Assembly (NCBI GenBank): GCA_001871015.1
Contig: MNUO01000108.1
Location: forward strand, 1-46,651
Direction: 5' to 3'
DNA from: Candidatus Desantisbacteria bacterium CG1_02_38_46
GTDB taxonomy: Bacteria; Desantisbacteria; UBA1551; UBA1559
DNA: 46,651 nucleotides
Shown here piece by piece: positions 2,848 through 46,651 of the stretch. Position numbers and translations under genes: made by a program. The notes beneath the pieces are model-generated. The model was not told the origin of the DNA. It was given only the letters and a program-made list of their open reading frames with translations, and did not search any database. Within the stretch, counting starts at the first letter, position 1. Each line of letters opens with the position of its first letter.

Positions 2848-3375
2848 ATGGAGTCAGCTCAAAATTTACCTCCCAAGTCAATAATAGAATGCTTACTTTT
2901 TGTCTCAGATGTTCCTCTGAATCCTCAAAGACTTGCCCATCTTACCGGGTTATTAGAGGAAGAAGTCAAACGGATTCTAATGGAATTAACCCAGGAGTAT
3001 GAGAGGGATGGTCGCAGTTTCAAGATTGCTGAGATTGCTGATGGATTTTTGATGTGTACGCGGCATGAATTTGCGCCATGGATAAAACTACTGTACGCAT
3101 CTCGAAACAGAGCAAAATTGAGCAAAGCGTCTCTCGAAGTTCTGGCGATACTTGCCTATCGACAACCAATCACAAGAGCAGAGATAGAGGCAATTCGAGG
3201 CGTAGACTGTAGCGGGGTACTGCACACCATTCTGGAGAGAAGGTTGATTAAAATTTCAGGGCGCAAGAAAGTTCTTGGTCGTCCGCTCCTTTACCGCACA
3301 ACAGATGAATTTCTGATTTATTTCGGATTAAAAGATCTTTCAGAATTGCCCCGCGTGGAAGAATTGCGTTTATGA
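2848..3375 (+). CDS. scpB: Segregation and condensation protein B
   Basis: ECLLFVSDVPLNPQRLA, LEVLAILAYRQPITRAEIEAIRGVDCSGVL, FLIYFGLKDLSELP typical ScpB. Confidence 0.93.
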   Translation: MESAQNLPPKSIIECLLFVSDVPLNPQRLAHLTGLLEEEVKRILMELTQEYERDGRSFKIAEIADGFLMCTRHEFAPWIKLLYASRNRAKLSKASLEVLAILAYRQPITRAEIEAIRGVDCSGVLHTILERRLIKISGRKKVLGRPLLYRTTDEFLIYFGLKDLSELPRVEELRL

Positions 3376-4619
3376 AAATCAAGAAGTTAGGGGAATTTGG
3401 ATTAATTGAGCACATCCGCCGCCACTTTACATCTTACACCTCCTCACCTCGGGGAACCCACGTTCTGCGTGGGTCGGGCACCCGCCTTACACAGAATTTC
3501 ATTGGCATCGGTGATGACACCGCTGTCATTAAGATTTCGTCCAAAAAATATTTGCTATGGACAACAGATATTCTTATAGAAAGCATCCACTTTCTCCCTA
3601 AACATCTTTCACTTTTACCTTTTAGATTTCGGCTTTCACCTACTTTTATGCTGGGCTGGAAAGCACTTGCTGTAAATCTGAGTGACATCGCAGCAATGGG
3701 CGGGATACCCCAGTATGCTCTGGTTACCCTCGGATTGAAGGGAAATGAGGATGTAAAATTCGTTGATGAATTATACCGTGGAATGAAATCTTGTAGTGGC
3801 AGAGCTCGCTATGATTGTAGTGGCAGACCTTGGTCTGCCGAAAAGTCGAGTAAACTCGACCACTACAGTAGTGGCAGACCTTGGTCTGCCGTCAAAATCC
3901 TCGGTGGCGATACTACAAAGTCACCCATTTTAGTGATAGATGTTTCTGTTATTGGAGAAGTTGAGAAGAAAAATTTGGTGTTACGCAGGGGCGCATCCCC
4001 CGGCGATGTAATTTGCGTTACAGGTTTCTGCGGCGATTCTGCCGTGGGGCTTGCTATACTTCGTAGAGGCTCGATTCATCGAGCCCATTGTAGTGGTACG
4101 ACCCACCCTTCGGGTGGGTGCCCCGGCTCTGCAAATGAGAGACATCTTATTTGTCGTCATCTAATGCCCACTCCTCGTCTCAAAGAAGCAAGAATTATCG
4201 CAAAGAATCATCTTGCAACTTCTATGATTGATAATAGCGATGGTCTCCTCGCTTCAGTTAAATTTCTGTGTCAATCTTCTGGTGTTGGTGCAAAAATCTA
4301 CGAAGATAAAATTCCCATTTCTAAACAATTAATTAAGGGACTGTTCCACCCGCCTCGGGCTGAGGGACTGTCCTATTGCCGTAGTGGCAGAGTTCACTCT
4401 GCGATACAAAAATTTGCCCTCACCGGTGGCGAAGACTACGAACTCGTTTTTACAGTACCGCCCCAGAAATTAAATGATGTTTTGACTAAAATTCCTGAAT
4501 TAACCGGTACACCCGTGACCGCAATAGGGGAAGTTACAAAAAATAAAGGGATTTTTGTCTGCAATTCCAGTGGCAAGAGGAAAAATATAAAAAATATGGG
4601 TTTTGACCATTTTGTGTAG
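3372..4619 (+). CDS. thiL: Thiamine-monophosphate kinase carrying several in-frame palindromic insertions
   Basis: FIGIGDDTAVI, LAVNLSDIAAMGG, KILGGDTTKSP, MIDNSDGLLAS, LTGGEDYELVFTVP ThiL motifs, interrupted by non-conserved inserts. Confidence 0.92.
   Translation: MKIKKLGEFGLIEHIRRHFTSYTSSPRGTHVLRGSGTRLTQNFIGIGDDTAVIKISSKKYLLWTTDILIESIHFLPKHLSLLPFRFRLSPTFMLGWKALAVNLSDIAAMGGIPQYALVTLGLKGNEDVKFVDELYRGMKSCSGRARYDCSGRPWSAEKSSKLDHYSSGRPWSAVKILGGDTTKSPILVIDVSVIGEVEKKNLVLRRGASPGDVICVTGFCGDSAVGLAILRRGSIHRAHCSGTTHPSGGCPGSANERHLICRHLMPTPRLKEARIIAKNHLATSMIDNSDGLLASVKFLCQSSGVGAKIYEDKIPISKQLIKGLFHPPRAEGLSYCRSGRVHSAIQKFALTGGEDYELVFTVPPQKLNDVLTKIPELTGTPVTAIGEVTKNKGIFVCNSSGKRKNIKNMGFDHFV
3451..3486. repeat. 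Palindromic insertion in thiL (site 1)
   Basis: gaACCCACGttctgCGTGGGTcgggcacccgcc. Confidence 0.6.
3791..3891. repeat. Palindromic element cluster in thiL (site 2), TGTAGTGG...CCACTACA family
   Basis: tgtagtGGCAGACCttGGTCTGCCgaaaaGTCGAGTaaACTCGACcactacagtagtGGCAGACCttGGTCTGCC; gtagtgg starts at 3793, 3817 and 3868 (spacing 24 and 51 nt). Confidence 0.92.
4061..4131. repeat. Palindromic insertion in thiL (site 3)
   Basis: GGCTCGATtcATCGAGCC then tgtagtggtacgACCCACCCttcGGGTGGGT. Confidence 0.85.
4338..4403. repeat. Palindromic insertion in thiL (site 4)
   Basis: gggactgttccacccgcctcgggctgagggactgtcct plus gtagtggCAGAGTtcACTCTGcg. Confidence 0.75.
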
Positions 4620-7309: not shown

Positions 7310-8257
7310 TTGACAAATGACAAATCATTGTTGATTCTGGGAATTGATACGAGCGGAGAGTATTGCAGTGTGGGGTTGGTGCAGGGTGAAAGAGTCCTTG
7401 GAGAAATAAGCGAAAGTGCTCCGCAGAAACACTCAGACCAGTTAATTCCATTTATTGATAAGATTTTGAAGGATAGCCACCTGAAAATACAGGATGTGGA
7501 TGGTATTGCCGTGTCACTGGGTCCGGGCAGTTTTACCGGATTGCGGGTAGGAGTGGCAACTGCGAAGGCACTGGCACAGGGGCTGGAGATTCCAATTGTG
7601 GGAGTCAGAACATTGGATATGATAGCATTAAATGCGGTTGAATATTGTAGTGGCAGACCTTGGTCTGTCGAAAAGTCGAGTAAACTCGACCACTACAGTA
7701 GTGGCAGACCTTGGTCTGTCGAAAAGTCGAGTAAACTCGACCACTACAGTAGTGGCAGAGTTTACTCTGCTATAGATAGTCGAGCGGGGTACCCGCCGAA
7801 GGCGGGTCGGACCACTACAATTTGTCCAATTGTGGATGCGAGGAAACAGCAGATTTATACGGCAGTCTATAAAATAAAGTCTAAGAGCCGAAGAACCGAA
7901 GAGCCGAAGTTAAAAAAAATGACAAAAGATTTAGTACTCACAATTGACGAGTTCTTTAAATTACTGATGACTTATAACTCACGACTTATGACGGTATTTA
8001 TAGGTAACGCAATTCCAGTTTACGGCGATGTAATAAAAGAGAAACTGTGTGGGTGTCCGCCAGGAGTGGGTGGGGGCGGGCAGGCGATTTTTGCAACTAA
8101 GGAATTATGGTATCCCCGCGCATCAAATATTGCACTGGCAGGACTGGAGAAATTGCAGCAAAATAAAAAAGGTGACAATCTTTTTAAATTGAAACCGATA
8201 TATTTGAGGGAGCCGGATATCAGGGCTAAAGCCCTGAGTTACATGGTTCAGGGCTAA
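7310..8257 (+). CDS. tsaB: tRNA threonylcarbamoyladenosine biosynthesis protein TsaB with large in-frame insertion; start uncertain
   Basis: LILGIDTSGEYCSVGLV, PLGPGSFTGLRVGVATAKALAQG-like motif, PIVDARKQQIYTAVYK; insert between AVEY and ICPIVDAR. Confidence 0.9.
   Translation: MTNDKSLLILGIDTSGEYCSVGLVQGERVLGEISESAPQKHSDQLIPFIDKILKDSHLKIQDVDGIAVSLGPGSFTGLRVGVATAKALAQGLEIPIVGVRTLDMIALNAVEYCSGRPWSVEKSSKLDHYSSGRPWSVEKSSKLDHYSSGRVYSAIDSRAGYPPKAGRTTTICPIVDARKQQIYTAVYKIKSKSRRTEEPKLKKMTKDLVLTIDEFFKLLMTYNSRLMTVFIGNAIPVYGDVIKEKLCGCPPGVGGGGQAIFATKELWYPRASNIALAGLEKLQQNKKGDNLFKLKPIYLREPDIRAKALSYMVQG
7645..7820. repeat. ~176-nt composite palindromic insertion in tsaB, flanked by ttgtagtgg/ccactacaa
   Basis: gtagtgg at 7647, 7698, 7749 (exact 51-nt period); units GGCAGACCttGGTCTG, GTCGAGTaaACTCGAC, GCAGAGTttACTCTGC, ACCCGCCgaaGGCGGGT. 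Confidence 0.95.
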
Positions 8258-8270
8258 AGCCCTGAGTTAC
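8216..8270. repeat. Palindromic repeat pair (TCAGGGCTAAAGCCCTGAGTTAC) overlapping tsaB 3' end
   Basis: gatatcagggctaaagccctgagttac and ttcagggctaaagccctgagttac. Confidence 0.9.
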
Positions 8271-8293
8271 AAAACTGATTTTGGGAGGTGACC

Positions 8294-13331: not shown

Positions 13332-13808
13332 ATGTTTACTGGACAAAAAACAAGAATTTTTAAAAAAATGGTCGCTGTTACTATTTTTGGACTGGTGTGC
13401 TCAAACCTGATATTTGCGCAAGCAGTGCAGACAATTTATTCTAGCGGTACGGTATATCTTCCTGATGTATGTCCACAGAGTTGCATTGCAGTGCTAACTG
13501 TAAATGTTGTCTGGAAGGATTTCCCTGCCTCTCAGGGTGGCACTGGACGCAAAATAGTTGAGGAAGCAACCTTCACAGGAAAAGAAGGGGAGAGGGAAAT
13601 TAAATTTACAGGTGTCAGGATTACTCCATCTTTTTTCCGGGGAGAGATTTCACTGAATGTGCAGTGTGAAATTAAAAAAGGCGATATGGTGGTGGCAAGA
13701 TTTAAGATGGATGGAGAAGATGCAAACAGCCCGAAGCCGATGAGTTATAATGAGGCGGTTGCCGGTAATCTGCTGAATCTGAAATTGAAAATGAAAGCAG
13801 CAGAGTAA
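13332..13808 (+). CDS. Hypothetical exported protein; C-terminus/stop inside a repeat
   Basis: RBS aaggaggt; N-terminal signal peptide KKMVAVTIFGLVCSNLIFAQA. Confidence 0.7.
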   Translation: MFTGQKTRIFKKMVAVTIFGLVCSNLIFAQAVQTIYSSGTVYLPDVCPQSCIAVLTVNVVWKDFPASQGGTGRKIVEEATFTGKEGEREIKFTGVRITPSFFRGEISLNVQCEIKKGDMVVARFKMDGEDANSPKPMSYNEAVAGNLLNLKLKMKAAE

Positions 13809-13853
13809 ACTCTGCCACTACATAATGAGCAGCAGAGTAAACTCTGCCACTAC
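13797..13853. repeat. Palindromic repeat pair (GCAGAGTAAACTCTGCCACTACAT)
   Basis: gcagcagagtaaactctgccactacat twice; reverse complement of the gtagtggcagagtttactctgc unit in tsaB. Confidence 0.92.
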
Positions 13854-23337: not shown

Positions 23338-23417
23338 ATATATAGGGTTATTTGAACCAATACAATTATATCATAAAATTTTCCAATGTCAATTTATTTT
23401 GAAATAAAAAAGGTTTT

Positions 23418-23477
23418 GATATCAGGACTAAAGTCCTGAGTTACGTAACTCAGACCTTCAGGTCTGATTTTTCTTGA
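23418..23477. repeat. Palindromic repeats; 56 nt identical to 2775..2830
   Basis: tcaggactaaagtcctgagttacgtaactcagaccttcaggtctgatttttcttga present in both places. Confidence 0.95.
23450..23472 (+). terminator. Terminator-like hairpin from repeat unit
   Basis: TCAGACCT TC AGGTCTGA then TTTTT. Confidence 0.5.
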
Positions 23478-34656: not shown

Positions 34657-34779
34657 TTATATTCTATTTTCTCTAATTGTAAAGATCTTTTTCAAAAAAC
34701 TCACAACATAATGCGTGCCAAGAAGTTCTTTGATTTCTAATTGACTGAAAGGTGTCAATCATCGTAATTGTCTGTTAGC

Positions 34780-36607
34780 GATGTAGTCTGAGATGCAATA
34801 TGTGGAGAAATCTGCAGTGTTGTAGCTATTTGACAAATTCCGCTTTAGGCGGGAGAGGCAAACAAGCAGACCGTAACAAAAGTGAACCTATATGTAGCCT
34901 CGTTAGGAGTAAATGGGAAAGGCGAGCCTGTGTTATGTGGGCGAAGCCAGTAATCTATCCCAAGAGACAGATAAAAGCAGGATAGATTTTCTCCGGGGTA
35001 ACAGGGACGGTATGCTTGGAAAGAACTCAAGGGAAACTTGGGAGAGCCTACCCTATCACTCGTAAGGAGTAAAACTTTTGCCTATAACCGAAAGGGAAGT
35101 GGCAATAAGGGTAGGGAGGTAGTCGGAGGAGTTCATAGTAGCGAAGAGAATAGGGACAACAAAACCCTATATGAGCGAAGGAACTCTGCTTTAACTAATG
35201 TTTTCAAAGAAAGGATGGATTTAGTAGATTGGACAATAACCTACCAACTACGGATAAAGTTCAGGAATTTCAGAGAAAACTATACCTTAAGGCAAAGTCA
35301 CAGCCAAACTTCCGCTTCTATGCTTTATACGACAAGATTTATCGAACAGATGTCCTTCAAAAAGCCTGGCAAAGAGTGAGATTAAATCACGGTTCGCCAG
35401 GCATAGATGGGAAAACCATCAAGGACATTGAAGAGGCAGGAGTGGAAGATTTTCTTAAAGGCATTCAGCAAGAGCTGAAAGCAAAGGAATATCAACCATC
35501 GCCAGCGAGGAGAGTTTATATCCCCAAGCCTGATGGCAGGTTAAGACCATTGAGCATACCTACTCTAAAAGATAGGGTTGTTCAGATGGCTTTAAAATTG
35601 GTAATTGAGCCTATTTTCGAAGCACACTTCGAGGATAACTCATATGGATATAGACCTCAAAGGAATGCCCAGCAGGTAGCTTTGGAAATCCGTAAATATC
35701 TTAATTACGGAATGACCGAAGTTATTGAGGCTGACCTTGAAGACTGTTTTGGTTCTATTCCTCACAGGGAACTTCTGGATATGATTGCCAGAAGAGTAGT
35801 TGATGGTAGGGTGCTACACTTAATAAAACTATTCCTGAAAACAGGAGTAATGGAGCAAGGAGGGAAAAGGATAGACGAGACAGGCACTCCACAGGGCGGG
35901 GTAATATCGCCATTATTGGCAAATATATACCTTGACCAGATGGATAAAGGCTGGAAGCCATTAAATGAAACTGCCCGTCTTTTAAGATATGCAGATGATT
36001 TGGTGATTATCACCAAATATAATGCAGAGAAATTTCTCTTTGAACTTCAGAAACTTACTACTAAATTGAAGTTAAAACTTAAGCCAGCAAAAACAAGAGT
36101 AGTAAATGCAGAAGAAGAAAGTTTTGACTTTTTGGGATATAGTTTTAGGAAAGCATTGAACCCACAGAAGACGAAGAAGGTAGCATATTTTTGGCCATCA
36201 CAGAAGGCAGAAAAGACAATAAAAGAGAAAGTGAGGAAGATTACAAATCCTGCTCGACCTGTAAAGGTAGGGCAAGTGATAAAAGAACTCAATCCAGTAA
36301 TTAGGGGATGGGTAAATTACTTTAGAATAGGCAACTCTACAAAGAAATTCGATAATCTTAAGTTGTGTGTAGCAGAGAAAATTAGGAAGTTTATGCGTAG
36401 ACGCAGGCAGAAGGCAGGATATGGATATAAGAAATATCCTGATGAATATCTATACAGCAAATTAGGTTTGTATAGAGACTATCATCTTGCGTGGACGAAA
36501 GCCTTAAGATGAGCGGTTATCGGAAAGCCGTGTGAGGGAAAACCTCACGCACGGTTTGATGAGGGGACGCTGAAAACCCTGTGAGGGCGTCAGTGTTCTA
36601 CTCTACG
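34780..36607 (+). mobile_element. Group II intron with internal RT ORF (boundaries approximate)
   Basis: Structured ~450-nt 5' leader, RT ORF, then GGAAAGCCGTGTGAGGGAAAACCTCACGCACGGTTTGATGAGGGG...GTGTTCTACTCTA 3' end typical of group II introns. Confidence 0.85.
35229..36512 (+). CDS. ltrA: Group II intron reverse transcriptase/maturase
   Basis: GSPGIDGKTI, RPLSIPTLKDRVVQMALKLVIEPIFEAHFEDNSYGYRPQRNA, GTPQGGVISPLLANIYLDQMD, LLRYADDLVI (YADD). Confidence 0.96.
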   Translation: MDNNLPTTDKVQEFQRKLYLKAKSQPNFRFYALYDKIYRTDVLQKAWQRVRLNHGSPGIDGKTIKDIEEAGVEDFLKGIQQELKAKEYQPSPARRVYIPKPDGRLRPLSIPTLKDRVVQMALKLVIEPIFEAHFEDNSYGYRPQRNAQQVALEIRKYLNYGMTEVIEADLEDCFGSIPHRELLDMIARRVVDGRVLHLIKLFLKTGVMEQGGKRIDETGTPQGGVISPLLANIYLDQMDKGWKPLNETARLLRYADDLVIITKYNAEKFLFELQKLTTKLKLKLKPAKTRVVNAEEESFDFLGYSFRKALNPQKTKKVAYFWPSQKAEKTIKEKVRKITNPARPVKVGQVIKELNPVIRGWVNYFRIGNSTKKFDNLKLCVAEKIRKFMRRRRQKAGYGYKKYPDEYLYSKLGLYRDYHLAWTKALR

Positions 36608-45189: not shown

Positions 45190-45200
45190 AGAAAGGAAAG

Positions 45201-46651
45201 ATGATGAAAAAAATAAAATTTATTTTAGGTTTAGTAGTAATGGGAAGTTTAATTAGTGGAATTACTTTTGCAGGTATAACTAATTTCGCTTCTGTTGAAT
45301 ATATGAATTTAGCCGGAGAAGATACAACCACAAGCTTCTCTAATTTTGTAATTGCTTATTTTCAACCGGGGATAAGCAATGTAAGTGGAAACCCTCCTGA
45401 TTTTAAATTTAGCCCTAATAATGATGCAAACAAAGATACCTTAACAATTAATTTTACTATTGTTGATACTGATAGCATTGCGGAAACAATCGCTGTCTAT
45501 ATTTACGATAAAGTAATGAATCTTGTTAAGACCATCAAGTATGACACCGAAGTCCCACTCACGTATTGTCCAGAAACAGGTGAAACAAAAGTAGATTGTG
45601 TAGCAACCTGGAATGGGGACAGCGGTGGACTAATTGTTCCTTCGGATACTTATATTTATAAAATTGAAGTAAGAGATCCTGAGGGTTCGGAAGCGATTCC
45701 GAACACCGGAACAATTGTGCTCGATATAACACCGCCCTTTGGTGCACTCCTTATTAATAATGGCAATATCTATACAAATATTCTAAATGTAACCTTGAAT
45801 ATTTCTGCTTCTGATACTCATACTTTTCCAGAAAAGATGTTTTTAAGTTATGTTTCAGATTTTTCCACTGGCGGTACTCTCTCCTATTCTTTAACATATC
45901 CCTGGACATTGTTGGAGGAAGGAGTAAACACTGTTTATATTAAGTTTATTGATTATGTGGGAAATATTTCTGAAGGTTATTCTGATGCAATTATTTATGA
46001 TCCTAATTTTCCTACCGGTTCTGTTTCTATTAACAGTGATGCTACCTACACAGATACCACAGGTGTTGTTTTGTATTTTACAGCGATTAACACCCACACT
46101 GATTTTGATAGTGTGGTGGTGAGTAATACTTCTACTTTTGTTGCAGACCAAATTGAGACCCATACTTACAGCAATACTTTGCCTTGGGGATTGACTGGCG
46201 ATGGAGAAAAAATTGTTTATGTAAAATTTATTGATAAGGAAGGAAATATTTCTCTTACTGTCTACTCCAATTCCATCATTGTTGACCTTACTCCTCCTGA
46301 TACTGGTTTAATCTCTATTAATAATAAGGATACCTTTACTAATTCCAATACTGTTACTTTACAAATCTCTGCTGGTGACACTTTGTCCGGTGTTGCCAAG
46401 ATGGTCATTGATAATACCAGTGCTTTCAACTCTGACAAGGTTAATACTTATACCTTTAATAATACTACTTCTTATAATACCGAAGTGGCGCAATGGGTAT
46501 TAGAATCTGGAGACAATACCAAGACTGTTTATGTGAAATTTATTGATGCAGTAGGGAATGTTTCCTCTGTCTACTCTGATTCCATCATTGTTGACCTTAC
46601 TTCTCCTGATACTGGTTTAATCTCTATTAATAATAAGGATACCTTTACTAA
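45201..46651 (+). CDS. Large secreted/surface repeat protein, 3' truncated by window end
   Basis: Open from ATG 45201 (RBS gaaaggaaag) to window end; signal peptide MMKKIKFILGLVVMGSLISGITFAG; tandem ~100-aa domains VDLTPPDTGLISINNKDTFTN... Confidence 0.85.
   Translation, partial: MMKKIKFILGLVVMGSLISGITFAGITNFASVEYMNLAGEDTTTSFSNFVIAYFQPGISNVSGNPPDFKFSPNNDANKDTLTINFTIVDTDSIAETIAVYIYDKVMNLVKTIKYDTEVPLTYCPETGETKVDCVATWNGDSGGLIVPSDTYIYKIEVRDPEGSEAIPNTGTIVLDITPPFGALLINNGNIYTNILNVTLNISASDTHTFPEKMFLSYVSDFSTGGTLSYSLTYPWTLLEEGVNTVYIKFIDYVGNISEGYSDAIIYDPNFPTGSVSINSDATYTDTTGVVLYFTAINTHTDFDSVVVSNTSTFVADQIETHTYSNTLPWGLTGDGEKIVYVKFIDKEGNISLTVYSNSIIVDLTPPDTGLISINNKDTFTNSNTVTLQISAGDTLSGVAKMVIDNTSAFNSDKVNTYTFNNTTSYNTEVAQWVLESGDNTKTVYVKFIDAVGNVSSVYSDSIIVDLTSPDTGLISINNKDTFT

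Follow-up and report, generated by a model that had tools for sequence, protein, structure and literature searches.

In-frame GTAG-tagged palindromic repeats in thiL, tsaB and other core genes of a Desantisbacteria genome

The window analysed here, a stretch of 46,651 nucleotides from Candidatus Desantisbacteria bacterium CG1_02_38_46, is contig 76 of a 133-contig metagenome-assembled genome (MAG) of 1.73 Mb that is 88% complete. Its forward strand carries thiL (3372–4619), encoding thiamine-phosphate kinase (TIGR01379, 247.6 bits vs. a cut-off of 184), and tsaB (7310–8257; TIGR03725, 173.5 bits vs. a cut-off of 69.3). ThiL comprises 415 amino acids, compared with mostly about 320–340 in homologues outside the group, and its gene holds at least four palindromic inserts. 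One of these starts with a truncated GTAGTGG repeat (GTAGTGGCAGAGCTCGCT plus 6 nt; 3793–3816, + strand), followed by a GTAG repeat with the stem GGCAGACC-TT-GGTCTGCC (3817–3839, +), an inverted partner reading GTAGTGGTCGAGTTTACTCGAC on the minus strand (3845–3866) and a third GTAG repeat (3868–3890, +) identical in sequence to that at 3817–3839. The copies at 3817–3839 and 3845–3866 form the dimer of a 51-nt unit (3817–3867), which is composed of GTAGTG-hairpin, GAAAA, hairpin-CACTAC and a final A before the next tag. The repeat starts at 3793, 3817 and 3868 that an initial annotation had placed in one reading frame, with spacings of 24 and 51 nt, were confirmed in the sequence, and its translation of the insert, CSGRPWSAEKSSKLDHYSSGRPWSA, was correct. 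Three additional inserts, all on the + strand, were absent from that annotation, as was the truncation of the copy at 3793. They comprise a different palindrome, ACCCACG-TTCTG-CGTGGGT (3456–3474), in the insert of loop 1 (3450–3482); GTAGAGGCTCGATTCATCGAGCC followed by GTAGTGG...ACCCACCC-TTC-GGGTGGGT in loop 4 (4063–4124); and AGGGACTGTTCC...GAGGGACTGTCC followed by a GTAG repeat (4381–4402) in loop 5 (4335–4402). Loop 2 is the one of the five ThiL loops with no clear repeat.

The second array lies in tsaB (7647–7818, +), where two 51-nt dimer units with starts at 7647 and 7698 are accompanied by a third tag at 7749 and by an inverted, degenerate unit that ends in CTAC at 7818. As had been claimed, tsaB thus carries the 51-nt unit in the same phase as thiL, with the tag G in the second codon position. 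Two forward and two reverse frames are indeed open on the unit, and because one sense frame is closed by the TAG of GTAG, the frame common to thiL and tsaB is partly forced. Elsewhere in the window, two copies of GTAGTGGCAGAGTTTACTCTGC on the minus strand (13800–13853), located outside a gene or at its end, lie 32 nt apart, which is not a multiple of three.

Genome-wide repeat scans covered 1,728,455 of the 1,728,469 bases of the assembly, and 1603 open reading frames (ORFs) were called with a 3-periodic Markov caller; a caller based on codons only had missed thiL and was dropped. The GTAGTGG tag plus hairpin is present in 206 strict copies, and in 298 under a relaxed scan. Hairpins of the family mostly have stems of 7–8 bp and loops of 2 nt, and its stem variants retain pairing (GCAGAGT/ACTCTGC, GTCGAGT/ACTCGAC, GCAGACC/GGTCTGC and GGCGAGT/ACTCGCC). 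In a vectorised scan of all 4-mer tags preceding hairpins, GTAG positioned 6 nt ahead of a hairpin arm was about 30-fold enriched, and scrambled 7-mer tags yielded 5–12 tagged hairpins vs. 206 for GTAGTGG; given both results, the association of tag and hairpin is not due to chance. Inverted pairs with the tags facing outward number 32, usually with 48–49 nt from tag to tag, and in 22 further pairs the tags are 2–8 nt apart. An excess of long hairpins (stem ≥9) in coding genes was weak (56 vs. 33–48 in synonymous shuffles) and was not used as evidence.

Tags from the relaxed scan fall between genes in 151 cases, overlap a gene end in 48 and lie in ORFs in 99, with 74 of the latter well inside and spread over 39 ORFs; among strict copies, 56 of 206 are well inside ORFs. 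With about one third of the copies intragenic vs. about 89% of the genome called as coding, genes are on balance avoided. A second abundant palindrome, GTAACTCAGGACTTTAGTCCTGA, occurs in about 194 copies genome-wide and almost never in genes (2 of 194 well inside ORFs); since its stop-free frames are only about two-fold fewer, this gap between the two families is not fully explained. Within the window it is found at 2710–2830, 8213–8275 and 23415–23477, and the stretch 2775–2830 recurs identically at 23422–23477.

Judged against NCBIfam equivalog cut-offs, the hosts of the GTAGTGG repeat include, in addition to thiL and tsaB, the genes ispE, topA, dprA, ispG, asd, tsaD, trmD, thrC and trpE as well as aroA and cmk, which form a single repeat host, aroA-cmk. 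All same-strand tag spacings are multiples of three, including 24, 30, 51 and 57 nt, in 13 of 15 gene/strand arrays, and the two arrays that deviate are located at or ahead of a predicted start. Counted over neighbouring copies, 23 of 26 spacings inside genes are multiples of three, compared with 15 of 52 between genes, where the residues modulo 3 are evenly spread (15, 17 and 20). The frame reading TAG contains no sense copy, and the phase seen in thiL and tsaB is favoured over the other open sense frame (27 vs. 12 sites, p = 0.024), a preference that is real but modest.

Short hairpin inserts in essential genes recall bypassing elements such as the mitochondrial byps and T4 gene 60, and the 51-nt unit folds stably as single-stranded DNA (−13 kcal/mol, z of −4.9 relative to shuffles). 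The inserts could accordingly be removed or skipped during expression, by RNA excision or ribosomal bypassing, such that the protein never contains them. However, skipping demands neither lengths in multiples of three nor the absence of stops, and the intragenic inserts are found in either orientation and as one to seven tandem copies, with seven at a 24-nt period in ispE. Due to the conserved frame, we consider byps-like skipping very unlikely.

Counting by ORFs could hide genes broken by a repeat, and repeat clusters that lie outside ORFs but are flanked by coding signal on either side were therefore examined. Apart from one ambiguous queC fragment, none of 10 candidate junctions, evaluated by Pfam or by sequence, represents a gene split by a repeat; the flanks belong to different genes, and the repeats at these junctions often lie at or overlap the stop codon of the upstream gene. 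At one junction, hypA is short and ends inside the repeat. Genome-wide, intragenic copies hold the frame and sit in intact core genes, in support of the earlier proposal that the genome carries a family resembling the Rickettsia palindromic elements (RPEs) that enters coding genes in frame. In the ambiguous case, a queC-like ORF without its N-terminal part directly follows a GTAG repeat (contig C49, 21829–22231), and the repeat may have damaged this gene.

Comparison with homologues shows the thiL inserts to be extra sequence. We aligned ThiL with 11 homologues, ten from outside the Desantisbacteria group and one from a sister genome; none of the ten has homologous residues at the site of the insert, where the sister has a different one. 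Invariant residues of ThiL are present, including the GDD, SD, SDGL and GGEDY motifs. An AlphaFold2 model built from 12 sequences reached a pTM of 0.81 with most of the core above a pLDDT of 90, and its best structural match is the ATP-bound Aquifex enzyme AaThiL (3c9r, E value 9e-29). The segments with pLDDT below 50 correspond to the inserts: 22–25 and 27–40, i.e., most of residues 22–40 (loop 1), 154–170, 235–251 (loop 4) and 327–337 (loop 5). The mapping onto a model that the initial annotation had suggested thus places the GTAG and other inserts in four low-confidence loops and leaves the predicted ThiL fold intact, and the low pLDDT at these positions is as expected of disordered loops. 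In comparisons with solved structures, the sequence alignments show a gap or break at the insert for ThiL, TsaD, Asd and TrmD, those of TsaB and IspE stop at or before the array, and that of IspE picks up after it.

The sister genome, Candidatus Desantisbacteria bacterium CG1_02_49_89, is an order-level relative that was found when genomes were scanned with ThiL; its thiL region is identical to that of another genome record of the same order, and both records were treated as one genome. Overall, the ThiL proteins of window and sister share about 60% identity, and that of the sister has extra residues in the same five loops. These residues derive from other repeats, namely a GCCCCGAC palindrome, CGTACGT repeats, GGGACTGTCCC palindromes, and CGTGCAT and GTCGTAC heptads. 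Loop 1 is occupied by a palindrome unrelated to that of the window, loop 4 by CGTGCAT and loop 5 by GTCGTAC heptad repeats. Under a uniform model, the probability that the loops coincide to within five residues is about 7e-4 (all four) or 1e-4 (all five), values that structural constraint on loop positions would raise. In tsaB, the sister has a AAATCCCC...GGGGGATTT palindrome at the site of the window's 51-nt units. For gltX and a hydrogenase maturation protease-like gene (named by eye from its sequence), both genomes likewise have inserts in the same loop but composed of different repeats, and the two thrC genes have a second variable loop in common. Across the five proteins compared, the repeat-bearing loops of one genome usually hold an insert in the relative, often from another family. 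In the sister, the GTAG repeat itself is less common, with 12 copies of the exact pattern vs. 83 in the window's genome. Inserts are not everywhere: of seven other syntenic proteins, three gave gap-free alignments and the remaining four had between 1 and 12 gapped positions.

The thrC genes of both genomes share a GTAG repeat at the identical codon junction, its stem differing by a compensated change from T-A to C-G, a pattern that could indicate hairpins kept for a useful role in the mRNA or the protein, such as pausing, stability or a new loop function. Yet each stem variant is its own genome's common variant, so that turnover of the family also explains the compensated change. Moreover, the copy number, orientation and family of the repeats vary between the relatives at the same loops, inserts are absent from most homologues, and those modelled in ThiL have the low confidence that disordered loops would have. 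A useful role is consequently improbable. An origin of the inserts in assembly or binning is conceivable for a genome that is a MAG of 133 contigs with N stretches. However, the units, 23–51 nt long, lie within syntenic single-copy genes whose flanks are conserved on both sides, and the same phenomenon in an independently deposited Desantisbacteria genome makes such an artefact, which the initial annotation had raised as a concern, exceedingly improbable.

We found no description, in the literature searched, of two relatives whose same loops hold different repeats; this pattern is a lead rather than proof, as it is based on two genomes and a handful of genes. Tentatively, and at somewhat less than even odds, loops once opened by one repeat may remain lasting landing pads in this phylum, where unrelated repeat families (GTAG REPs, other palindromes and heptad tandem repeats) replace each other, always in frame and over long times; this turnover would continually supply core enzymes with new loop sequence. 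The 7-nt tandem repeats in the sister's thiL, tsaB and thrC (GTCGTAC, CGTGCAT and CGTGCGT) are in frame within conserved genes. Short tandem heptanucleotide repeats also occur in cyanobacteria. The sister's heptads resemble these while occupying the same loops as the inserts of the window; unlike the GTAGTGG family, they are not palindromic elements and probably arise by replication slippage.

Palindromic repeats tagged with GTAG are known as GTAG REPs, for which Di Nocera et al. (2013) described 24 families (PMC3733652). Intragenic copies have been reported in Opitutus terrae, Thauera, Xanthomonas and others, encoding protein stretches of 20 to 82 amino acids, and GTAG is cleaved by an E. coli RAYT (PMC3733652). 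The GTAGTGG element shares with them an unpaired GTAG at one end, a stem and loop within their range (5–13 bp and 2–20 nt), a high copy number, inverted dimers and clusters, a mostly intergenic distribution with an in-frame intragenic minority, and a tag whose TAG often serves as the stop codon of the upstream gene. It differs in its candidate-phylum host, in that no flanking RAYT was found, and in hosts that span core metabolism, whereas published host genes mainly concern DNA repair. With its varied stems, the element was matched to none of the 24 families, the sequences of which (given in figures) stayed uncompared, and Rfam contains no family matching it. The RPEs proposed as precedent, of which RPE-1, RPE-4 and RPE-6 were considered, are likewise palindromic, dispersed and in frame in genes that likely work (PMC3733652), and the comparison stands for in-frame insertion into conserved protein genes. 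It fails for sequence class, with no sequence relation shown: RPE-4 and RPE-6 belong to the CGTC class (PMC3733652) and RPE-1 is longer, whereas the unit described here has 23–51 nt, a GTAG tag and a Desantisbacteria host. The GTAG REP superfamily therefore fits as the closest family, with RPEs as an analogue. Intragenic palindromic repeats are thus already published, and Desantisbacteria, for which no paper on repeats of this kind was found in the literature searched, represents a clear new case with heavy invasion.

The most likely explanation, to which we assign a probability of roughly 85%, is that the GTAGTGG repeats are non-autonomous GTAG-tagged REP elements that are retained, in frame and in loops, by purifying selection. 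Such elements, with hairpins of 7–8 bp and a 2-nt loop, would occur singly, as inverted dimers of ~50 bp or in tandem arrays, and probably spread by means of a RAYT-type HUH transposase recognising the GTAG tag and hairpin. Insertion would hit both genes and intergenic DNA, and selection would spare copies between genes as well as intragenic copies that are free of stops, amount to a net multiple of three and lie in permissive loops. The latter would presumably be translated into flexible, short stretches that lack any evident role of their own. No Y1 transposase flanked by GTAGTGG repeats was detected in the window's genome (88% complete assembly); its two Y1 genes with a complete domain are bounded by different terminal repeats, and one of them is interrupted by a stop. 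In the sister, none of 10 Y1 genes adjoins a GTAG copy, based on coordinates and on copies found by the pattern used. As no flanking RAYT was found, we infer the mobility of the element, and the transposase may be encoded in the missing 12% of the assembly, may have been lost or may be supplied in trans. The two Y1 genes are located on contig C109 (6886–7869) and contig C60 (around 8541, the copy with the internal stop) and carry short inverted repeats at their termini (GGGTCAGACCTCAAC; AAAAAGGGGACG). Judged by eye, the long C-terminal part of the C109 protein resembles the C-terminal domain of DnaA.

Most descriptions of selfish palindromes that invade proteins come from Rickettsia and a group of species rich in REPs. 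The Desantisbacteria case extends to dozens of core genes in an unrelated candidate phylum, with a relative that bears other repeats in the same loops. It opens two questions to testing, namely which loops of a protein accept random peptide and whether inserts of this sort add real novelty to proteins or amount only to tolerated junk, and it cautions that length differences of core genes in such MAGs can represent repeat inserts.

Other repetitive or mobile features were observed in the window. A group II intron at 34746–36606 (D1-D4 match 34746–34881, D5-D6 match 36523–36606) encloses an ORF of 427 amino acids (35229–36512), and a lone second group II intron match lies at 202–286. An ORF with long internal repeats of about 280–310 nt occupies 45200–46649 and runs past the window end.
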